Source: Atopococcus tabaci DSM 17538 (GTDB lineage Bacteria; Bacillota; Bacilli; Lactobacillales; Carnobacteriaceae_A). Taken from it: a stretch of DNA of 42,253 nt. The stretch spans positions 1 to 42,253 of the forward strand of contig NZ_AUCD01000011.1 of assembly GCF_000429585.1 (NCBI RefSeq), given 5' to 3'. Positions 403 to 34,135 of this stretch are shown one piece after another (the first letter of the stretch is position 1; each line of letters opens with the position of its first letter). A program made the translations under genes and the position numbers. The notes under the pieces were generated by a model, which was not told the DNA's origin, made no database searches, and was given only the letters and a program-made list of their open reading frames with translations.

Positions 403-536
403 TTTTCTTTGTCAAATAGAGTGAGGCTTATCAACAAAGAAAAATGAAAAAAAGTTTTCTTTGTCGTATAGGGAGGTTCTCTTCAACAAAGAAACCAAAC
501 AATCAAGAATCTTTGTCCATTAGACACACGAAAAAG
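403..536. repeat. Palindrome array A, upstream of NERD locus 1
   Basis: CTTTGT arms begin at 407, 459 and 511, exactly 52 bp apart. ACAAAG arms begin at 434 and 486. The first two pairs each form a 33-bp inverted repeat (407-439 and 459-491), which extends outward to about 9-10 bp of stem through flanking TTT/AAA. The third unit has only a clear left arm. ATAG or TTAG follows the left arm in every unit (positions 10-13 of the unit). The same family recurs after the gene at 1507-1645. Confidence 0.85.
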
Positions 537-581: not shown

Positions 582-1544
582 ATGAAAAAATTAAACGAAG
601 TCACCCCGTCACTCAACTTAAGGATCATGCGGGCGTTGAAAAAACGGATGGCGCTCCCGCAAGAAGCACAGCGGTACCACTTCAATTTGGAAAGCGGGCA
701 TGAAGGGGAGTGTAACTTTTCTTCTATGATCCGTGATTTATCCAGCGAACTCATAATTGCACATGACTTGTTATTAAAGGCAAACGGAGTGAAGTTCCAA
801 CTGGATGTCGTCATGATGACACCGGCAGGGATTCGCTTATATGAAGTGAAAAACTATGAGTGAGAATACGAATGCAGAGAAAATCTTGTTTACCGGATCC
901 GTTCGGGGAATGAAATATTGAATCCGTTTCTACAGTTGGAGAAGCACCAAACTCGTTTCCGTCAATTGATGAGGGAGATGAACATCCAGATGAGTTTTCA
1001 AGCCTATGTGGCGTTCGTTCATCCGGAATTCACTCTGTATGGCGCGGCACCCCGACCGGATTTGCTTCTGCCGACCGTGCTGCCGAATCATTTGAGAGAA
1101 TTGGACAAGATGCACGAGCGGCTGACCAACTATCAGGAAAAGGTGATGAAACGGTTGTTTGAAACAACGCTGCCGGAGACCCCACATGAAAACATCCCCA
1201 AATACACGTTTGAAAGTTTGGAAAAAGGAATCTTCTGTGCGCAGTGAGGGGCAATCGTGACAAAGAAAAACCAACAAACGTGCCGATGCACGCGGTGTGG
1301 GTGGGAAGAGGTCACCATCAAAGGAATCCAACGCCAGATTGAGGACTACGAAGTTCTCTTCCCAGAAGGTCTCAAAACCGTTTCAATCATCCGCGAATGG
1401 TGCGGACACGAACCATCTGATCGCCAACTTGCGTACGCATTGGAGAAAAATAATAGGAAGATTGGCACCAAACGTTGGACACGGTACGAAAAACGAGTTC
1501 TAATCGACAAAGAAGAAGAGAAAGAGAATTTCTTTGTGGAATAG
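582..1544 (+). pseudogene. NERD-domain nuclease with zinc ribbon, interrupted by two in-frame TGA codons
   Basis: One reading frame of 320 codons runs from ATG 582 (good SD, GAGGAGGG) to TAG 1542-1544, broken only by TGA at 861-863 and at 1245-1247. The first part carries the NERD signature: HEGE, FQLDV and YEVKNYE, i.e. the acidic and E-x-K residues of a PD-(D/E)xK-type nuclease. The middle matches the intact homologue at 33130-34026 in layout. The end has a zinc ribbon (CAQ-stop, then CRCTRCG) and a tail like the paralogue's putative DNA-binding region. The first TGA sits where the paralogue has Gly (KNYSG), the second where it has the second Cys of CxxC. Each is one base from the expected codon. 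Two nonsense mutations are the simplest reading. The frame's last codons lie inside repeat array A. Confidence 0.75.
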
Positions 1545-1645
1545 AACCTCCCTCATTCACAAAGAACTCAAACGATCAGACACCTTTGTCGAATAGACGC
1601 TCGCTCATCGACAAAGAATCACAAATAAATAAATCTTTGTCAAAG
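1504..1645. repeat. Palindrome array A, downstream of NERD locus 1
   Basis: Arms continue the upstream family: ACAAAG at 1507, CTTTGT at 1532, ACAAAG at 1559, CTTTGT at 1584, ACAAAG at 1611, CTTTGT at 1635. This gives two full 33-bp units (1532-1564 and 1584-1616, again 52 bp apart) and half-units on either side. The unit at 1584 has a perfect 9-bp stem (CTTTGTCGA / TCGACAAAG). The array begins inside the 3' end of the broken NERD frame, whose TAG stop is the ATAG of the unit at 1532. Confidence 0.85.
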
Positions 1646-3104: not shown

Positions 3105-4509
3105 CTTGAAATTGAAAACTCATTCAACGTATGCGACCGATTATGAAGTCGCGCTGTTGGAAGAAGATATGACGCCTCAAAAGTTATCAGAAGGTAAGAC
3201 GTTTCAGTTGCTTGTTTACAATGACGAGCAATACAAGGAATACCAAATCGGCTTCACAACCCTTCCGATAGTTAAGATTGAATTGGAGGATCCGCCAGGT
3301 GATGAGAACAACCCAATCGGCATAGAAGACGCTTGGGCCAAGTTCGAACTCTATGACAACCGGGAGGGAGTCGCTAAAAAGGAACGGCTTGTCAAAAGTT
3401 ATACATACGTTCGGCTGAGAGGAGCATCCAGTCTGAGGTATCCACAGAAACAAATGCGGTTGAACTTACGTGATCTTTCCATCAGTGGAGAAGAAAGCAA
3501 CCAACATTTGTCATTGTTAGGAATGCGTGAAGACGACGATTGGATACTGTATGCGCCGTACAGCGACCCGGAAAAAATCCGCGACACATTCTCCACCAAT
3601 CTATGGTACGAAACTTCCGCACAAAACAATTCCCTGGACGTAGACAACGGAACAGAAGGAAAGTTTGTGGAAGTCTTTATCGGAGATCGCTATTGGGGGG
3701 CCTATACATTAATGTTCCCCATAGACGAGAAGCAGTTGGATTTGGATAAGGACAAAGGGAATTCGTTGGAAAGTGATTTTTATTACCGAATCTTTTCAAA
3801 CGTAGCACCTCAAGAAGAGACGTTCAAACAATCCGGTAACAGCTTGATTGCAGGAAGCGTGGAACTGCGTTATCCAGATGAGCCATTGAATGACTACAGG
3901 CAATGGGAGCCCTTGATGCAACATCTAGACGCGATGGCAGCGGGAGAAGAACCGCTTCGTGACTACATGCAGACAAAGGCGGAATTACCCAATCAAATTG
4001 ATTATTTCCTCTTCTACACCCTCACGCAAGCGCATGACAATGACACAAAGAACCGTAATTATATGGCGTATTGGGAAGAAGGTCAGCACTTGATGTTAGA
4101 ATCTCCTTGGGATCTCGATTTGACTTGGGGAAATAGATGGACTCAAGAACATGCATTGAATGTACAAGTACGGGGACACGCAGGCGAAAACTTAGTGCTT
4201 CGTCCGTCGCTTATTACACGTGCACTAGAACTGGGAATGACAGATATCTCTGAAGAAGTTATCCAAAGGTATAAAGAACTCAGAGAAACGGTTTGGTCGG
4301 AAGAACATTTGTTACATCGACTCGAACAATACGAACATGACATCTATGGCTCCGGAGCGGCTGCCCGCAACCATGCGCGTTGGCCGGGAGCGGCGTATGC
4401 GGAAGATGCGTCCGCATTGAAACAATACGTTGAAAATCGATTGGTTCATATGGATCGCTTCATTTATGAAACAGTCCAAGGAGGGGCGCTGCATGACAGA
4501 AACAGATAA
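3049..4509 (+). CDS. CotH-like protein kinase family protein (frameshifted at its 5' end)
   Basis: The body matches the CotH kinase family, atypical protein-kinase-fold proteins first known from Bacillus spore coats but also found in other surface systems. Visible family features are RGASSLRYPQKQMRLNL (the RGxSS..P.K.xR block), DDDWILYAPYSDP, EVFIGDRYWGAYTL and PWDLDLTWG, the last holding putative metal/catalytic aspartates. The true N-terminus is probably the out-of-frame membrane anchor at 2943-3104, giving about 520 residues facing the cell exterior. The 3' end overlaps the VTC gene at 4493, and DUF4956 follows, a grouping seen in other bacteria. The substrate is unknown, and whether the protein is made depends on the frameshift being real. 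Confidence 0.75.
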   Translation: MLRYSLRSTRKLLEKETFDLKLKTHSTYATDYEVALLEEDMTPQKLSEGKTFQLLVYNDEQYKEYQIGFTTLPIVKIELEDPPGDENNPIGIEDAWAKFELYDNREGVAKKERLVKSYTYVRLRGASSLRYPQKQMRLNLRDLSISGEESNQHLSLLGMREDDDWILYAPYSDPEKIRDTFSTNLWYETSAQNNSLDVDNGTEGKFVEVFIGDRYWGAYTLMFPIDEKQLDLDKDKGNSLESDFYYRIFSNVAPQEETFKQSGNSLIAGSVELRYPDEPLNDYRQWEPLMQHLDAMAAGEEPLRDYMQTKAELPNQIDYFLFYTLTQAHDNDTKNRNYMAYWEEGQHLMLESPWDLDLTWGNRWTQEHALNVQVRGHAGENLVLRPSLITRALELGMTDISEEVIQRYKELRETVWSEEHLLHRLEQYEHDIYGSGAAARNHARWPGAAYAEDASALKQYVENRLVHMDRFIYETVQGGALHDRNR

Positions 4510-14669: not shown

Positions 14670-17021
14670 ATGAAAAGAAAGAAGTTAGTCAGTGTATTGA
14701 TGAGCAGTGCCCTTTTATTTACCACTGGAGCACCAACTGTACTTGCTGCGCCGCTTGATGAAAATGTTTTGTTGGCCTCGGAAGAAGAAACAAGTCTCTT
14801 TTTGGCTGAGTTAATCAGTAAAGCAGATGGAGACAACAACATAGACGGTATTGGTGACATCAAACTTACATTTCATGGCGAGACTGTTCACATATCCGGC
14901 ACAGTTGACAATGCCTATACTGTTTCTCTGGAAATGTCATTTGAGGAAAGCTTAGTTTTTGAATCTGGAAGCCAGCTGGATGTCCAATTAAGCTTGGAAG
15001 ACTTAACAAACGAAGGTACAGTCTTGAAAGTGACGCATACCGAAACTGAAGAAAATACCCTTGAGGCGGACCTTTCCGACCTTTTTGACTCATACATAGC
15101 AAGCATTGAAGAAGATGCTGAACCTAAAGAAGAAAGCGGCCAAGAAACTGAAGAAGTGACTGATGAACTGGACAGTACAGTTATCGACACTGAGGCTGAA
15201 GAAAAGCTGGATAATTCTGAAAAAGAAGCTGTCAGTGACAGTGCTGTCGAACAAGAAGACAATACTGTAAGCGATCAAGAAGAGTCCGAAGAAGAGACTA
15301 TCGAAGAAGAACTTGCAGAAGAAATTGTTGAAGAAGAGATTGAGGAAGAAGCTACCGAAGAAGAGAATGTAGAAAAAGACACAGAGGCGGCAGAGGAAGA
15401 AGAGCTCGCAGAAGAGCCGATTGAAGAAGAGTATCATGAGATAAAAGAATACGAAAGCCCATCAAGTGAACACTCATTTCCAAGAGAATCCGGTGTGGAC
15501 GAGATTTTACACGGCGACGAGCAGAGCGAAACAGAAGAAGCCCCAGCTCCCCGTATGAGAATGTTTTCTACATTCGGTGCTCGTAGACTTACAGCAGCCA
15601 GTGATGGTACATACACAGTTAAACGCGGCGACACCTTCAGTCTCATTGCGTCTTCATTTAACTTGAGTGTACGTCAGTTACAAGAATGGAATTCCCATGT
15701 TACAAATATCAACGTAGTCCCTGTAGGAACACGGTTGGCTGTAACGAGACGGGGAGTCGAAGAGATGCTGTCGCCGAGTGACAAAGCACGCCTCTATAAA
15801 GGTGGGGCTACATCTCAGTTCTCAACACCTCAAGAGTTTATTGATGAAATCGCTCCTCGAGCTATTCAGGTTGCTAATCAAGAAGGACGTGAAGGATTGT
15901 GGCCTTCACTTATGATTGCTCAGGCTGCTCACGAAAGTAATTACGGCCGCAGTTCCTTAGGAAGTGCTCCGTATCACAATTTGAGCGGAATCAAAGGATC
16001 GCACAACGGAAAATCTGTATTGATGTGGACGTGGGAAGTATACGGCGGACAACGAGTCAACGTATTGGCTAACTTCAGACACTATCCGTCTTATGATGCC
16101 TCGCTTCAAGACTACGCAAACTTGTTGCGGAATGGATTGTCTTGGAATAGACGCTACTATGCTGGTACGTGGAGAAGCAATACAAATTCCGTTTGGGATG
16201 TTTTAAATAACAACGGGTTAAAAGGCTATGCTACCGATCCTAATTACTACGCTGCCATCAGAAGAATCATCAACCAGTATGATTTGACTCAATATGACAC
16301 CGGAAATCATTACTATGTTCGTACAGGAACATTTTTAGGGAAAGAGTTCACTACGATACAAATGAATCGATTGAAAGCTGAAAACGGTCAGTATTCTTAT
16401 CGGATTGAACGAGATGAAAACAAAGCGCCTTATTCGTACAGAAGAATTCAGTCAACTAAAGACTTTTTAGGTGAAGCAGGGGCGCAGCGTGTCATTGACC
16501 AATTGCGCAGAGAAAAAGGATGGAGCGCTTCAATGGTTCCATCTGGTAACAGCACTCAACGTCATCGCGTACGGTCTGGGTTCTTTAACACATTGAGAGA
16601 AGCAGAAAGAGCTCTTAAACAATTCGAGAACTTGAGCGGATATTCTGCTACGATTGTACACGGTTCAGACGGCAAGTATAGAATTCGAACAGGATTCTTT
16701 AATGGAAGAAGCAGTGCACAGTCAGGCGTAGATTATATGAAAGAGTTGGGCTGGTCTGCTTTCATTCTCGAATCAACTGATTCGACTCCGCATTATTACG
16801 TCCGTACAGGAACGTTTAATACTCCTAACCATGTCAACAGAGCAACAGACTACTTCAACCAAAATGGCTGGGGAAGCAAGCCAGTACTTGATTCGAAAAA
16901 TAACTATTACTACAGAATATATATAGAAGGTTTCCACAACCATAGCCGGGCATCTTCTTATGTATCACATCTGAAAAATAAATACAATTGGGGATCAACT
17001 GCCTTTCTTGTAGAAGACTAG
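14670..17021 (+). CDS. Secreted LysM / glucosaminidase / SPOR-repeat cell-wall hydrolase
   Basis: 783 residues. A signal peptide (about 1-26, basic start and hydrophobic core, ending VLAAP) is followed by a folded region, then a very acidic Glu-rich stretch (about 150-290). A LysM peptidoglycan-binding domain follows at about 312-357 (TYTVKRGDTFSLIA), and a glucosaminidase domain at about 380-545 with the likely catalytic Glu in AQAAHESNYGRSS. The rest is a series of about five SPOR-like repeats (HYYVRTGTF, HRVRSGFF, KYRIRTGFF, HYYVRTGTF, YYYRIYIEGF). Such an enzyme cuts the glycan strands of peptidoglycan outside the cell. SD AGGAGG precedes ATG 14670. It is an unusual gene to find inside a polysaccharide cluster. 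Confidence 0.9.
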   Translation: MKRKKLVSVLMSSALLFTTGAPTVLAAPLDENVLLASEEETSLFLAELISKADGDNNIDGIGDIKLTFHGETVHISGTVDNAYTVSLEMSFEESLVFESGSQLDVQLSLEDLTNEGTVLKVTHTETEENTLEADLSDLFDSYIASIEEDAEPKEESGQETEEVTDELDSTVIDTEAEEKLDNSEKEAVSDSAVEQEDNTVSDQEESEEETIEEELAEEIVEEEIEEEATEEENVEKDTEAAEEEELAEEPIEEEYHEIKEYESPSSEHSFPRESGVDEILHGDEQSETEEAPAPRMRMFSTFGARRLTAASDGTYTVKRGDTFSLIASSFNLSVRQLQEWNSHVTNINVVPVGTRLAVTRRGVEEMLSPSDKARLYKGGATSQFSTPQEFIDEIAPRAIQVANQEGREGLWPSLMIAQAAHESNYGRSSLGSAPYHNLSGIKGSHNGKSVLMWTWEVYGGQRVNVLANFRHYPSYDASLQDYANLLRNGLSWNRRYYAGTWRSNTNSVWDVLNNNGLKGYATDPNYYAAIRRIINQYDLTQYDTGNHYYVRTGTFLGKEFTTIQMNRLKAENGQYSYRIERDENKAPYSYRRIQSTKDFLGEAGAQRVIDQLRREKGWSASMVPSGNSTQRHRVRSGFFNTLREAERALKQFENLSGYSATIVHGSDGKYRIRTGFFNGRSSAQSGVDYMKELGWSAFILESTDSTPHYYVRTGTFNTPNHVNRATDYFNQNGWGSKPVLDSKNNYYYRIYIEGFHNHSRASSYVSHLKNKYNWGSTAFLVED

Positions 17022-32923: not shown

Positions 32924-33062
32924 GTGGAGTGAGGTTGGTAAATAGGGGGCACTCCACGCAAACTTTGCGCAATGAGTGTAGTGGAAGGTTTAGATACTCA
33001 TGACTCCACGCATACAGGAAAATTTGCGTGAAGCGAACACGAAAACCAATATCCACTCCACG
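32924..33062. repeat. Palindrome array B, upstream of NERD locus 2
   Basis: Arms of a GTGGAGTG/CACTCCAC inverted pair alternate at exact 26-bp steps: GTGGAGTG at 32924, CACTCCAC at 32950, GTGTAGTG at 32976, GACTCCAC at 33002, GTGAAGCG at 33028, CACTCCAC at 33054. The full period is 52 bp, as in array A. Many arms continue into CGCA or TGCG, so stems can be longer, e.g. CTCCACGCA (33004) with TGCGTGAAG (33025). Sequence between arms is not conserved. Confidence 0.88.
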
Positions 33063-33076
33063 AATAAAATGATATT

Positions 33077-33106
33077 CCCCACTTTTTGCGTATCTTATTA
33101 GTGAGC
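33077..33106 (+). promoter_or_regulatory. TTTTGCGTA-loop element upstream of NERD locus 2
   Basis: CCCCACT (33077-33083) and AGTGAGC (33100-33106) form an imperfect stem (5 of 7) around a 16-nt loop that begins TTTTGCGTA. Layout and loop start equal those of the element at 544-573. Here the SD (AAAGGAG) lies 3' of the hairpin. It may instead be part of the promoter. Confidence 0.45.
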
Positions 33107-33129
33107 ACAACTAAGAAAGGAGCACTTTT

Positions 33130-34026
33130 ATGATCGTAAAACGACTGAAGAAGCCGGTGGCGCTCAGAATCTATGACGCCTTGAACGCCCGCATGACACT
33201 GACGGCTGCCCAACAACGAGAGCGCCAGAGTTATCAACGCGGTTACGAAGGCGAGGTTCAACTGGGGAATCACTTCGAAAAAATGCCGTTCGATTGCCTG
33301 GTTCTGCAAGACCTACAGTTGAAAGAAAGCGGGGTGCAGGTCCAAATCGATGTGCTGCTTCTCACCGGAAACACGATTCATCTCTACGAAGTCAAAAACT
33401 ATTCCGGTAGCTATGACTTCCAAGACGACGCCTTGCATACGCAAGCCGACTTTGTAGTAGACCCGTTGGCGCAGACTCGTAAAAGCAAGCCGCTGATCTA
33501 CAACTTGGTCCGCAAATGGGGTTATCGATTCCAAGTGGAAGAGTGCGCCATCTTCATCAATCCCAACTTCTATATCTACCAGCTTCCGCGTGACAAACCG
33601 TTCGTGTTTCACCACCAACTGCCGCATCACTTCGGGCAAACAGGCCAAGGTGTTTGGATCGATGAATCCCACAAGCGGTTGGCGCAGAAGCTTCTGAACT
33701 GCCACCTCCATGACTACCGCCCGCACGAGTTGCCGCGCTACGAATACGCACAGCTCAAAAAAGGCATCTACTGCTCTCAATGCTATTCGTTTGCCCACAC
33801 GAACACACGGCAGACCCGGATTTGCACATGTAGGTACAAAGAAACTATACGGGAAGCAATCCAGCGCACGGCAGAGGAGTTCCGGCTGTTGTTTCCTGAA
33901 AGAAAAATGACTACGAGCGTCATTTATGACTGGTGTGGCCGTGAATACTACAAACAACGGATTCAAGAAGTGATGCAGGAGCATTTTACGGTTTATGGAA
34001 AATGGGGCGGCACCTATTATACGTGA
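33130..34026 (+). CDS. NERD-domain nuclease with zinc ribbon and C-terminal putative DNA-binding domain
   Basis: 298 residues, intact. The N-terminal NERD domain (about 35-130) has the likely PD-(D/E)xK residues: Glu42 in GYEGE, Asp74 in QIDV, and Glu87 and Lys89 in LYEVKNY. A middle region follows. Then comes a four-Cys zinc ribbon (Cys215, 218, 232, 234) and a basic C-terminal domain (about 238-298) with a helix-turn-helix-like stretch around TTSVIYDWCG and YYKQRIQEVMQEHF. The protein is expected to cut or bind nucleic acid; its real role is unknown. SD AAAGGAG precedes ATG 33130. Its stop codon lies inside the first arm of the downstream array. It is a paralogue of the broken gene at 582-1544 and has no functional link to polysaccharide genes that I can see. 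Confidence 0.82.
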   Translation: MIVKRLKKPVALRIYDALNARMTLTAAQQRERQSYQRGYEGEVQLGNHFEKMPFDCLVLQDLQLKESGVQVQIDVLLLTGNTIHLYEVKNYSGSYDFQDDALHTQADFVVDPLAQTRKSKPLIYNLVRKWGYRFQVEECAIFINPNFYIYQLPRDKPFVFHHQLPHHFGQTGQGVWIDESHKRLAQKLLNCHLHDYRPHELPRYEYAQLKKGIYCSQCYSFAHTNTRQTRICTCRYKETIREAIQRTAEEFRLLFPERKMTTSVIYDWCGREYYKQRIQEVMQEHFTVYGKWGGTYYT

Positions 34027-34135
34027 AGTGACTCTCTAAAACGAGGACTGCTCCACGCAAGTGACCACACATTGAATGCAGTGGATCCAAGAAAAAGGGC
34101 TCACTCCACGAATAAACGCCCATTTGCGTGGAGTG
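34022..34135. repeat. Palindrome array B, downstream of NERD locus 2
   Basis: Alternating arms resume at the stop codon: GTGAAGTG at 34023, TGCTCCAC at 34049, ATGCAGTG at 34076, CACTCCAC at 34102, GTGGAGTG at 34128, with steps of 26, 27, 26 and 26 bp. The last pair is perfect over 9 bp (CACTCCACG 34102-34110 with 34127-34135). Its interior starts AATAAACGCCC, close to the AATAGACGCTC of array A at 1593. Confidence 0.88.

Follow-up and report, generated by a model that had tools for sequence, protein, structure and literature searches.

In the REP/RAYT partnerships of bacteria, each type of repeat is matched to its protein, and in the BIME arrays of E. coli, REPs of alternating orientation follow one another in extragenic DNA. 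As far as the accessible text of two papers goes, the RAYT (TnpA-REP) nuclease is chromosomal, tied to dispersed extragenic inverted REP/REPIN repeats, and not on plasmids (PMC8049555, PMC8266576); the accessible text of the second also has the REP palindrome accompanied by a GTAG or similar tag (PMC8266576). The accessible part of a third describes a NERD protein, SmdA of Staphylococcus aureus, as membrane-anchored and without several of the most conserved NERD residues, and mentions no association with repeats (PMC9040797).

We consider here a stretch of 42,253 nucleotides from Atopococcus tabaci DSM 17538, referred to as the window, in which the gene of a NERD protein, called NERD-A below, stands between two arrays of short inverted arms. 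NERD-A shares with SmdA the NERD domain (PF08378). A loose likeness to REP/RAYT, put forward in a preliminary description of the locus, is supported: both systems combine inverted repeats dispersed outside genes with a chromosomal nuclease gene that the same repeats accompany, and in both the repeat is matched to the protein; neither nuclease is seen on plasmids, and in both systems the repeats are commoner in the genomes that bear the nuclease. The enzymes, however, are of different classes: NERD-A combines a PD-(D/E)XK domain with a zinc ribbon and a winged helix, whereas RAYT is an HUH enzyme with a catalytic tyrosine. Judging from the lack of covariation in 84 arrays, the NERD arms appear to behave as duplex half-sites, in contrast to the single-stranded DNA hairpins of RAYT, and the 51-52 bp phasing of the arrays, with up to 11 NERD matches per genome, is also unlike REP/RAYT. 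The best reading is thus that the NERD-A system is REP/RAYT-like in its lifestyle without being a member of that group, since the enzyme class differs and the arms fail to behave as hairpins in covariation, which is an indirect test. BIME arrays and NERD arrays are both extragenic and alternate in orientation, but their sequence, spacing and protein differ.

We found no description of NERD-associated repeats in the open-access papers searched, including the accessible parts of PMC8049555, PMC8266576, PMC9040797 and PMC2267715, and a partnership in the Bacilli between a nuclease and its own DNA repeats looks previously undescribed.

The window locus and its predicted nuclease

The product of the window gene (298 amino acids) matches the Pfam model NERD (PF08378) with an E-value of 3e-12 and 47.4 bits, against a curated cut-off of 22.1; this is its sole Pfam match at E 1e-3. 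All eleven arms around the gene stand where the preliminary description had placed them (Table 1), and their orientation alternates throughout, as it had claimed. Exact copies of GTGGAGTG/CACTCCAC are found in five arms (32924, 32950, 33054, 34102 and 34128), one mismatch in three (32976, 33002 and 34023), and two mismatches in the remaining three (33028, 34049 and 34076). The regular spacing also holds, with upstream steps of 26 bp each and downstream steps of 26, 27, 26 and 26 bp, and the stop codon of the NERD gene (34024-34026) does lie within the first downstream arm.

Table 1. Positions in the window of the two NERD-A genes and of the arrays beside them
Feature	Position	Strand	Description
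NERD-A gene	33130..34026	+	298 aa: PD-(D/E)XK-type nuclease domain, zinc ribbon C215/C218/C232/C234, C-terminal winged-helix-like domain 239-298
Upstream array	32924..33061	.	six alternating inverted arms: 32924, 32950, 32976, 33002, 33028, 33054; steps 26 bp
Downstream array	34023..34135	.	five alternating inverted arms: 34023, 34049, 34076, 34102, 34128
Second, decayed NERD-A paralogue	597..1490	+	E 9e-84; two in-frame stops, both TGA
Array 5' of decayed paralogue	405..517	.	arm TTCTTTGTC/GACAAAGAA, alternating, 52-bp period; array score 36
Array 3' of decayed paralogue	1506..1641	.	arm identical to that of the 405-517 array

The array score used in this work is based on how often one 9-mer arm, whichever its orientation, is found in the 450 bp on each side of a gene, with same-orientation copies 50-54 bp apart; the array threshold is the 99th percentile of 92 shuffles. 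The window locus has a score of 27, and the maximum in 92 shuffled-sequence trials is 20.

When the score is slid along the window, it exceeds the threshold at three of 88 positions: 1900, 14050 and 15400. The first peak overlaps the array of a decayed NERD paralogue. This second NERD-A gene, with an array of its own, is absent from the preliminary description; the two NERD genes of the window have the same array design and unrelated arm sequences. The other two peaks have in common the stretch 14950-15400, and are probably false positives of the score: the stretch holds a GAA-rich short tandem repeat, at 15287-15366, within the ORF 14670-17021.

In the protein, residues E42, D74, E87-x-K89 and Q115, together with four cysteines, are kept in 98-100% of 87 aligned homologues. 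The AF2 model of the window NERD-A is confident (pLDDT 92.6). The structural neighbours of residues 3-184 are PD-(D/E)XK nucleases (Can2, McrC, Hjc and others), with a best Z of 8.2, a middling score; the matches to Can2, McrC and others have a Z of 7-8, and Card1 is also among the neighbours. Residues 239-298 match the fold of Z-alpha, Hop2-Mnd1 and others, with a Z of about 6 over 55-60 residues and an rmsd of about 2. A search of solved structures by sequence gives eight matches, the best at only E 0.053. By its catalytic motif (D74, E87-x-K89, Q115) and its core fold, NERD-A belongs to the PD-(D/E)XK nuclease superfamily, and is a predicted nuclease. Its catalytic residues appear intact, the sequence giving no sign of a dead enzyme.

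Occurrence of the arrays and their match to the protein

In a first set of 60 genomes, made up of the window's own and those of relatives, NERD homologues are present in 27, with up to 11 matches per genome, fragments included. From this search we took 91 loci, leaving out fragments and many lower-scoring rows: 70 of the 91 are above the array threshold, versus 3 of 81 control stretches located 900-1350 bp away. The second sample is made of the best 80 of at least 496 confirmed relatives from GTDB species genomes, in genera that include Alkalibacterium, Bacillus, Oceanobacillus, Ureibacillus, Lysinibacillus and Heyndrickxia; 78 of these best 80 are above the threshold, versus 2 of 70 controls located 2050-2500 bp away. 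This comparison of NERD flanks in related Bacilli with shuffled sequence had been suggested in the preliminary description, and it puts the arrays well above both the shuffles and the far controls. The shuffles and the control stretches at the two distances from the gene rule out chance or composition as the source of the arrays. Some of the loci above the threshold have copies in a single orientation only.

Pooled, the two samples, which have some loci in common, hold 158 non-identical proteins: 135 have an array within 450 bp, and 23 fall below the threshold. In 119 of the 135 array loci, the spacing that prevails is 51 or 52 bp. The array is downstream only in 89 of them, on both sides in 33, the window among these, and upstream only in 13. 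The inverted arms of the Bacillaceae are often 7 bp apart. That the arms are kept while the sequence between them varies, first remarked in the window, is a general property: over 133 loci, mean conservation is 0.89 in the arm versus 0.61 in the 20+20 flanking bases.

Ten neighbouring proteins, taken from nine loci, comprise eight members of common metabolic or cellular families and two proteins without a Pfam match. A CRISPR array is ruled out as the identity of the repeats: the arms alternate, the spacers are often common to neighbouring units, and no cas family is found among these ten neighbours.

How far do the arrays extend among NERD proteins? In a phylum-wide search of 398 genomes, with at most five candidates scored in each, matches that reach E 1e-45 are found in four genomes, one of them the window's own, and all four belong to the window's class; in the other three, 7 of 8 loci are above the array threshold, one with single-orientation copies only. 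A profile search of 43 genomes of the Peribacillus family yields two classes of NERD proteins: subfamily A, with E below 1e-90, in 10 genomes, and subfamily B, with E about 1e-36 to 1e-22, in many genomes. Arrays flank 9 of the 10 loci of subfamily A (one of them, L202, with direct copies only), the tenth being cut by a contig end, versus 2 of 20 loci of subfamily B, where one array is weak and the other has direct copies alone. Consequently, it is subfamily A, and not the NERD proteins in general, that the arrays accompany. NERD homologues without arrays, which the preliminary description had named as evidence against its proposal, do exist, but they are found in the sister subfamily B (18 of 20) and not in the subfamily of the window.

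The proteins of subfamily B (L203-L222, of which 18 of 20 are below the array threshold) are about 310-340 amino acids long, often with several copies per genome. At L222, there is a direct-only repeat of about 52 bp.

Arms and proteins vary together. Over the 116 loci with both arm orientations, mean arm similarity is 2.6 for protein identities below 40%, 3.4 at 50-60%, and 5.4 above 80%. The Mantel correlation between arm similarity and protein identity, r = 0.46, is reached by none of 2000 permutations, which ignore shared ancestry. Among same-genome pairs of NERD proteins with arrays, 77 of 90 are under 40% identity, and the arm likeness of these 77 pairs is no higher than in other pairs of such identity. 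The partial correlation is 0.21 for residues 201-298 versus 0.13 for residues 1-200, a modest C-terminal signal; it peaks in residue windows 217-243 and 265-279, which coincide with the modelled zinc ribbon and winged-helix-like domain (239-298). Co-evolution, subfamily specificity and domain content together make it very probable that the NERD protein recognises its flanking arms, as had been proposed at the outset; we predict with good confidence, from sequence comparison, that NERD-A binds its own arms.

Dispersed arrays and their turnover

The arms are also found far from the genes that they flank. In the counts that follow, a dyad is a pair of inverted arms, and dyads adjoining a NERD gene are included in all genomes. 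The genome of the window has 16 dyads of the window arm (up to three mismatches), versus 3 for the control pattern: six are at the NERD gene, nine at four other loci (C20, C21, C29 and C36), and one is isolated. With up to two mismatches, the window arm is counted 10 times in its own genome versus 0-2 times in 27 relatives. Likewise, the arm of Pisciglobus halotolerans (G027) forms 158 dyads at home, with a control of 1, and 0-3 in 21 other genomes. The Bacillaceae dyad GTCCTTCAT-N7-ATGAAGGAC (up to two mismatches) was counted in 12 genomes picked for NERD-adjacent arms that resemble it: these have from 2 to 181 dyads per genome, with a control of 0-1, and the largest number is that of Peribacillus deserti, 181 versus a control of 1.

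In the 43 genomes of the Peribacillus family, at least 14 dyads are found in eight genomes, seven of which carry subfamily A, and the other 35 genomes all have at most 4. Counted by protein, of the 10 genomes with subfamily A, 7 have at least 14 dyads, versus 1 of the 33 that lack it; once the three genomes chosen for their arms are removed, the numbers are 4 of 7 versus 1 of 33. In genome G105, the common Bacillaceae arm forms 14 dyads, and the NERD matches are of subfamily B only, with none of subfamily A: a lost gene, a gap in the assembly or some other protein that reads the arms may be the reason.

Dispersed arrays are mostly extragenic, and their arms are genome-specific. The preliminary description had also held that its case would fail if 52-bp arrays were equally common away from NERD genes. 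Such arrays exist, but they mostly bear the arms of the resident NERD gene, so that the initial idea is extended rather than refuted.

Two genomes of Heyndrickxia coagulans, 36D1 and DSM1, allow arrays to be compared site by site. The NERD-adjacent arm forms 167 dyads in 36D1 (control 10) and 67 in DSM1 (control 7), and each genome has one NERD-A match, beside GTCCTTTTG-type arrays. Orthologous arrays of the two genomes have 11 versus 21 units, and 9 versus 8 units; another has 12 units in DSM1, and in 36D1 an insertion of about 1.4 kb divides it into stretches of 9 and 8 units. Five array sites of 36D1 can be placed in DSM1: an array is present at all five, at two of them only as a short array of the other type. 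Two sites of 36D1 have long GTCCTTTTG-type arrays inside or beside GTCCTTCAT-type arrays, and at both of these mixed sites, DSM1 holds only a short GTCCTTCAT-type array. At several sites, the two arm types succeed each other in one 52-bp register. Since both copy numbers and arm types differ at sites common to the two genomes, arrays turn over in place, and the arm type can change within an array.

Certain stretches of 36D1 are seemingly absent from DSM1, and were candidates for clean empty sites. They proved to be arrays of a second type that lie inside or beside an older array, and DSM1 has this older array in a short form; because they sit in older arrays, we do not claim insertion into virgin sites, and the comparison of the five placed sites did not catch any spread to new ones.

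The correspondence between one protein and one arm is not strict: each of these two H. coagulans genomes has arrays of at least two arm types. No decay is seen in the type that is not beside the gene, with mean mismatches of 1.05 (38 dyads) versus 1.17 (96 dyads). This second type may be a leftover, or one protein may read both.

Three further observations concern these genomes. A two-ORF insertion of about 1.4 kb lies at about 921-2143 of L177 (36D1), within a 52-bp array that runs without interruption in DSM1; judged by eye, it is IS3-family-like. A third type of dyad, GTCTAATTG-N7-CAATTAGAC, with the same 9-7-9 geometry, is found at 3399-3423 of L180 (36D1) and at 17054 of L178 (DSM1). The stretch of L180 that adjoins it, at about 3317-3460, gives 20 of 63 BLAST rows in DSM1, and a further dispersed repeat thus adjoins the third dyad type.

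A proposed repeat system with a dedicated nuclease, and its alternatives

The explanation that best accounts for these observations as a whole, and towards which we lean, is that the NERD-A gene and its arrays form a chromosomal repeat system with a dedicated nuclease, the two co-evolving. NERD-A would be a sequence-specific nuclease that binds duplex DNA, and the arrays would be its binding sites: each arm would serve as a half-site, two inverted arms as a dyad, and dyads would recur every 51-52 bp. The winged helix and the zinc ribbon suggest that binding is by dimers. A length of 52 bp is about five turns of B-DNA, and equivalent sites therefore face one side; dimers bound on this one face could pack cooperatively. 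Each NERD-A gene would retain its adjacent array. The sequences themselves show the same arms strewn over the chromosome, mostly in extragenic positions, in dispersed arrays that grow and shrink in place. By nicking or cutting the arrays, NERD-A would trigger repair that copies, extends or converts units, and arrays would be maintained and spread in this way, as REPINs are by RAYTs. This last part is suggested by an active site that is intact and by arrays that turn over, and we give nuclease-driven upkeep and spread a little less than an even chance.

Going further, the arrays could be a bacterial "satellite DNA", in which NERD-A nicks or cuts phased duplex sites, repair lengthens and copies them, and shifts in the specificity of the winged helix drive the turnover of the arms. 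The arm replacement in the 52-bp register of H. coagulans would then exemplify co-evolution of the satellite or PRDM9 type in a prokaryote. We put this forward as a conjecture, possible but on balance doubtful.

The main rival to a repeat system with a dedicated nuclease is an element of architecture or transcription that serves the host: a domesticated NERD-A, acting as a nucleoid or insulator protein, would coat intergenic arrays and regulate itself through its own array, with nuclease activity secondary. Supercoil buffering, the ending of transcription, or looping are the roles that it might fill. The extragenic placement of the arrays is in its favour: simple ORF calling gives a convergent setting for 11, a tandem one for 10 and a divergent one for 1 of 22 dispersed places, and the one arm that falls within a called ORF, on C43, is single and not an array. 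So are the strict spacing, the five of five placed positions common to the two genomes of H. coagulans, and the lack of relatives on mobile DNA: one Bacillaceae query has no match at E 1e-5 among plasmids (72,556 records) or phages (50,697 records), and of 34 stretches of viral contigs that fit a peptide pattern, none was confirmed by the alignment search. However, a mere binder has no need of the catalytic residues that are kept in 98-100% of the 87 homologues, and neither the patchy presence, in 27 of 60 genomes and with as many as 11 matches in one, nor the turnover of the arms resembles a core architectural role. We regard this explanation as unlikely, though it deserves to be kept in view.

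A defence nuclease with decoys of self DNA is much less probable still. The arrays would hold or inhibit the nuclease, which would be freed against invading DNA. Can2, Card1 and McrC are indeed among the structural neighbours, and the protein of L016 weakly matches the models MADS6, PglW and MkoA, far below the curated cut-off where one exists; yet neither NCBIfam nor PADLOC has a match for the window protein, the ten neighbouring proteins of nine loci give no defence island, and decoys would require neither genome-wide dispersal nor a 52-bp phase.

The arms could also be hairpins, of RNA or in cruciforms, that is, stem-loops that act as terminators, in RNA stability, or as the single-stranded DNA hairpins of RAYTs, with the NERD gene incidental. 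Inverted arms, often 7 bp apart in the Bacillaceae, could fold, and half of the dispersed places examined are between convergent genes. In 84 arrays, however, the two arms of a dyad do not covary beyond what the rates at each position predict: coinciding substitutions number 62 versus 58.3 expected in the closer dyad, and 59 versus 59.5 in the other. Substitutions in same-orientation neighbours at 52 bp do coincide strongly (399 versus 260), and G-U-compatible mismatches have no clear strand bias (172 versus 147) in the same arrays. This makes it unlikely that selection acts on a hairpin of RNA or single-stranded DNA; the data fit independent duplex half-sites. Rfam has no match within the window at gathering thresholds, and the arrays are tied to one protein subfamily; we consider this account highly improbable.

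The same low probability goes to a mobile cassette, after the layout of the preliminary description, which had suggested a self-contained element: the NERD gene, bounded by the flanking arrays, would travel as a single transposon-like unit. The 33 of 135 loci, the window included, that have an array on either side, and the several paralogues per genome, would agree with it. Against it, arrays are downstream only in 89 of the 135, same-genome pairs with arrays are mostly divergent (77 of 90 below 40% identity), with unrelated arms, and are not recent copies, arrays of the same arms also occur elsewhere than at the gene, and the searches above give no plasmid, phage or viral relative.

If the NERD-A gene and its arrays are, as we favour, a repeat system with a dedicated nuclease, several consequences follow. 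The NERD nucleases, a little-characterised family, gain a target, the likely recognition sequence being the one that adjoins each gene. The 135 loci amount to more than 100 naturally diversified pairs of protein and arm, in which a protein-DNA recognition code is directly testable. The system would also add a second, independently evolved case for studying the persistence of dispersed bacterial repeats and of their nucleases, a question that is open for REP/RAYT. Finally, it would explain the otherwise anonymous 52-bp intergenic repeats of Bacilli such as H. coagulans.
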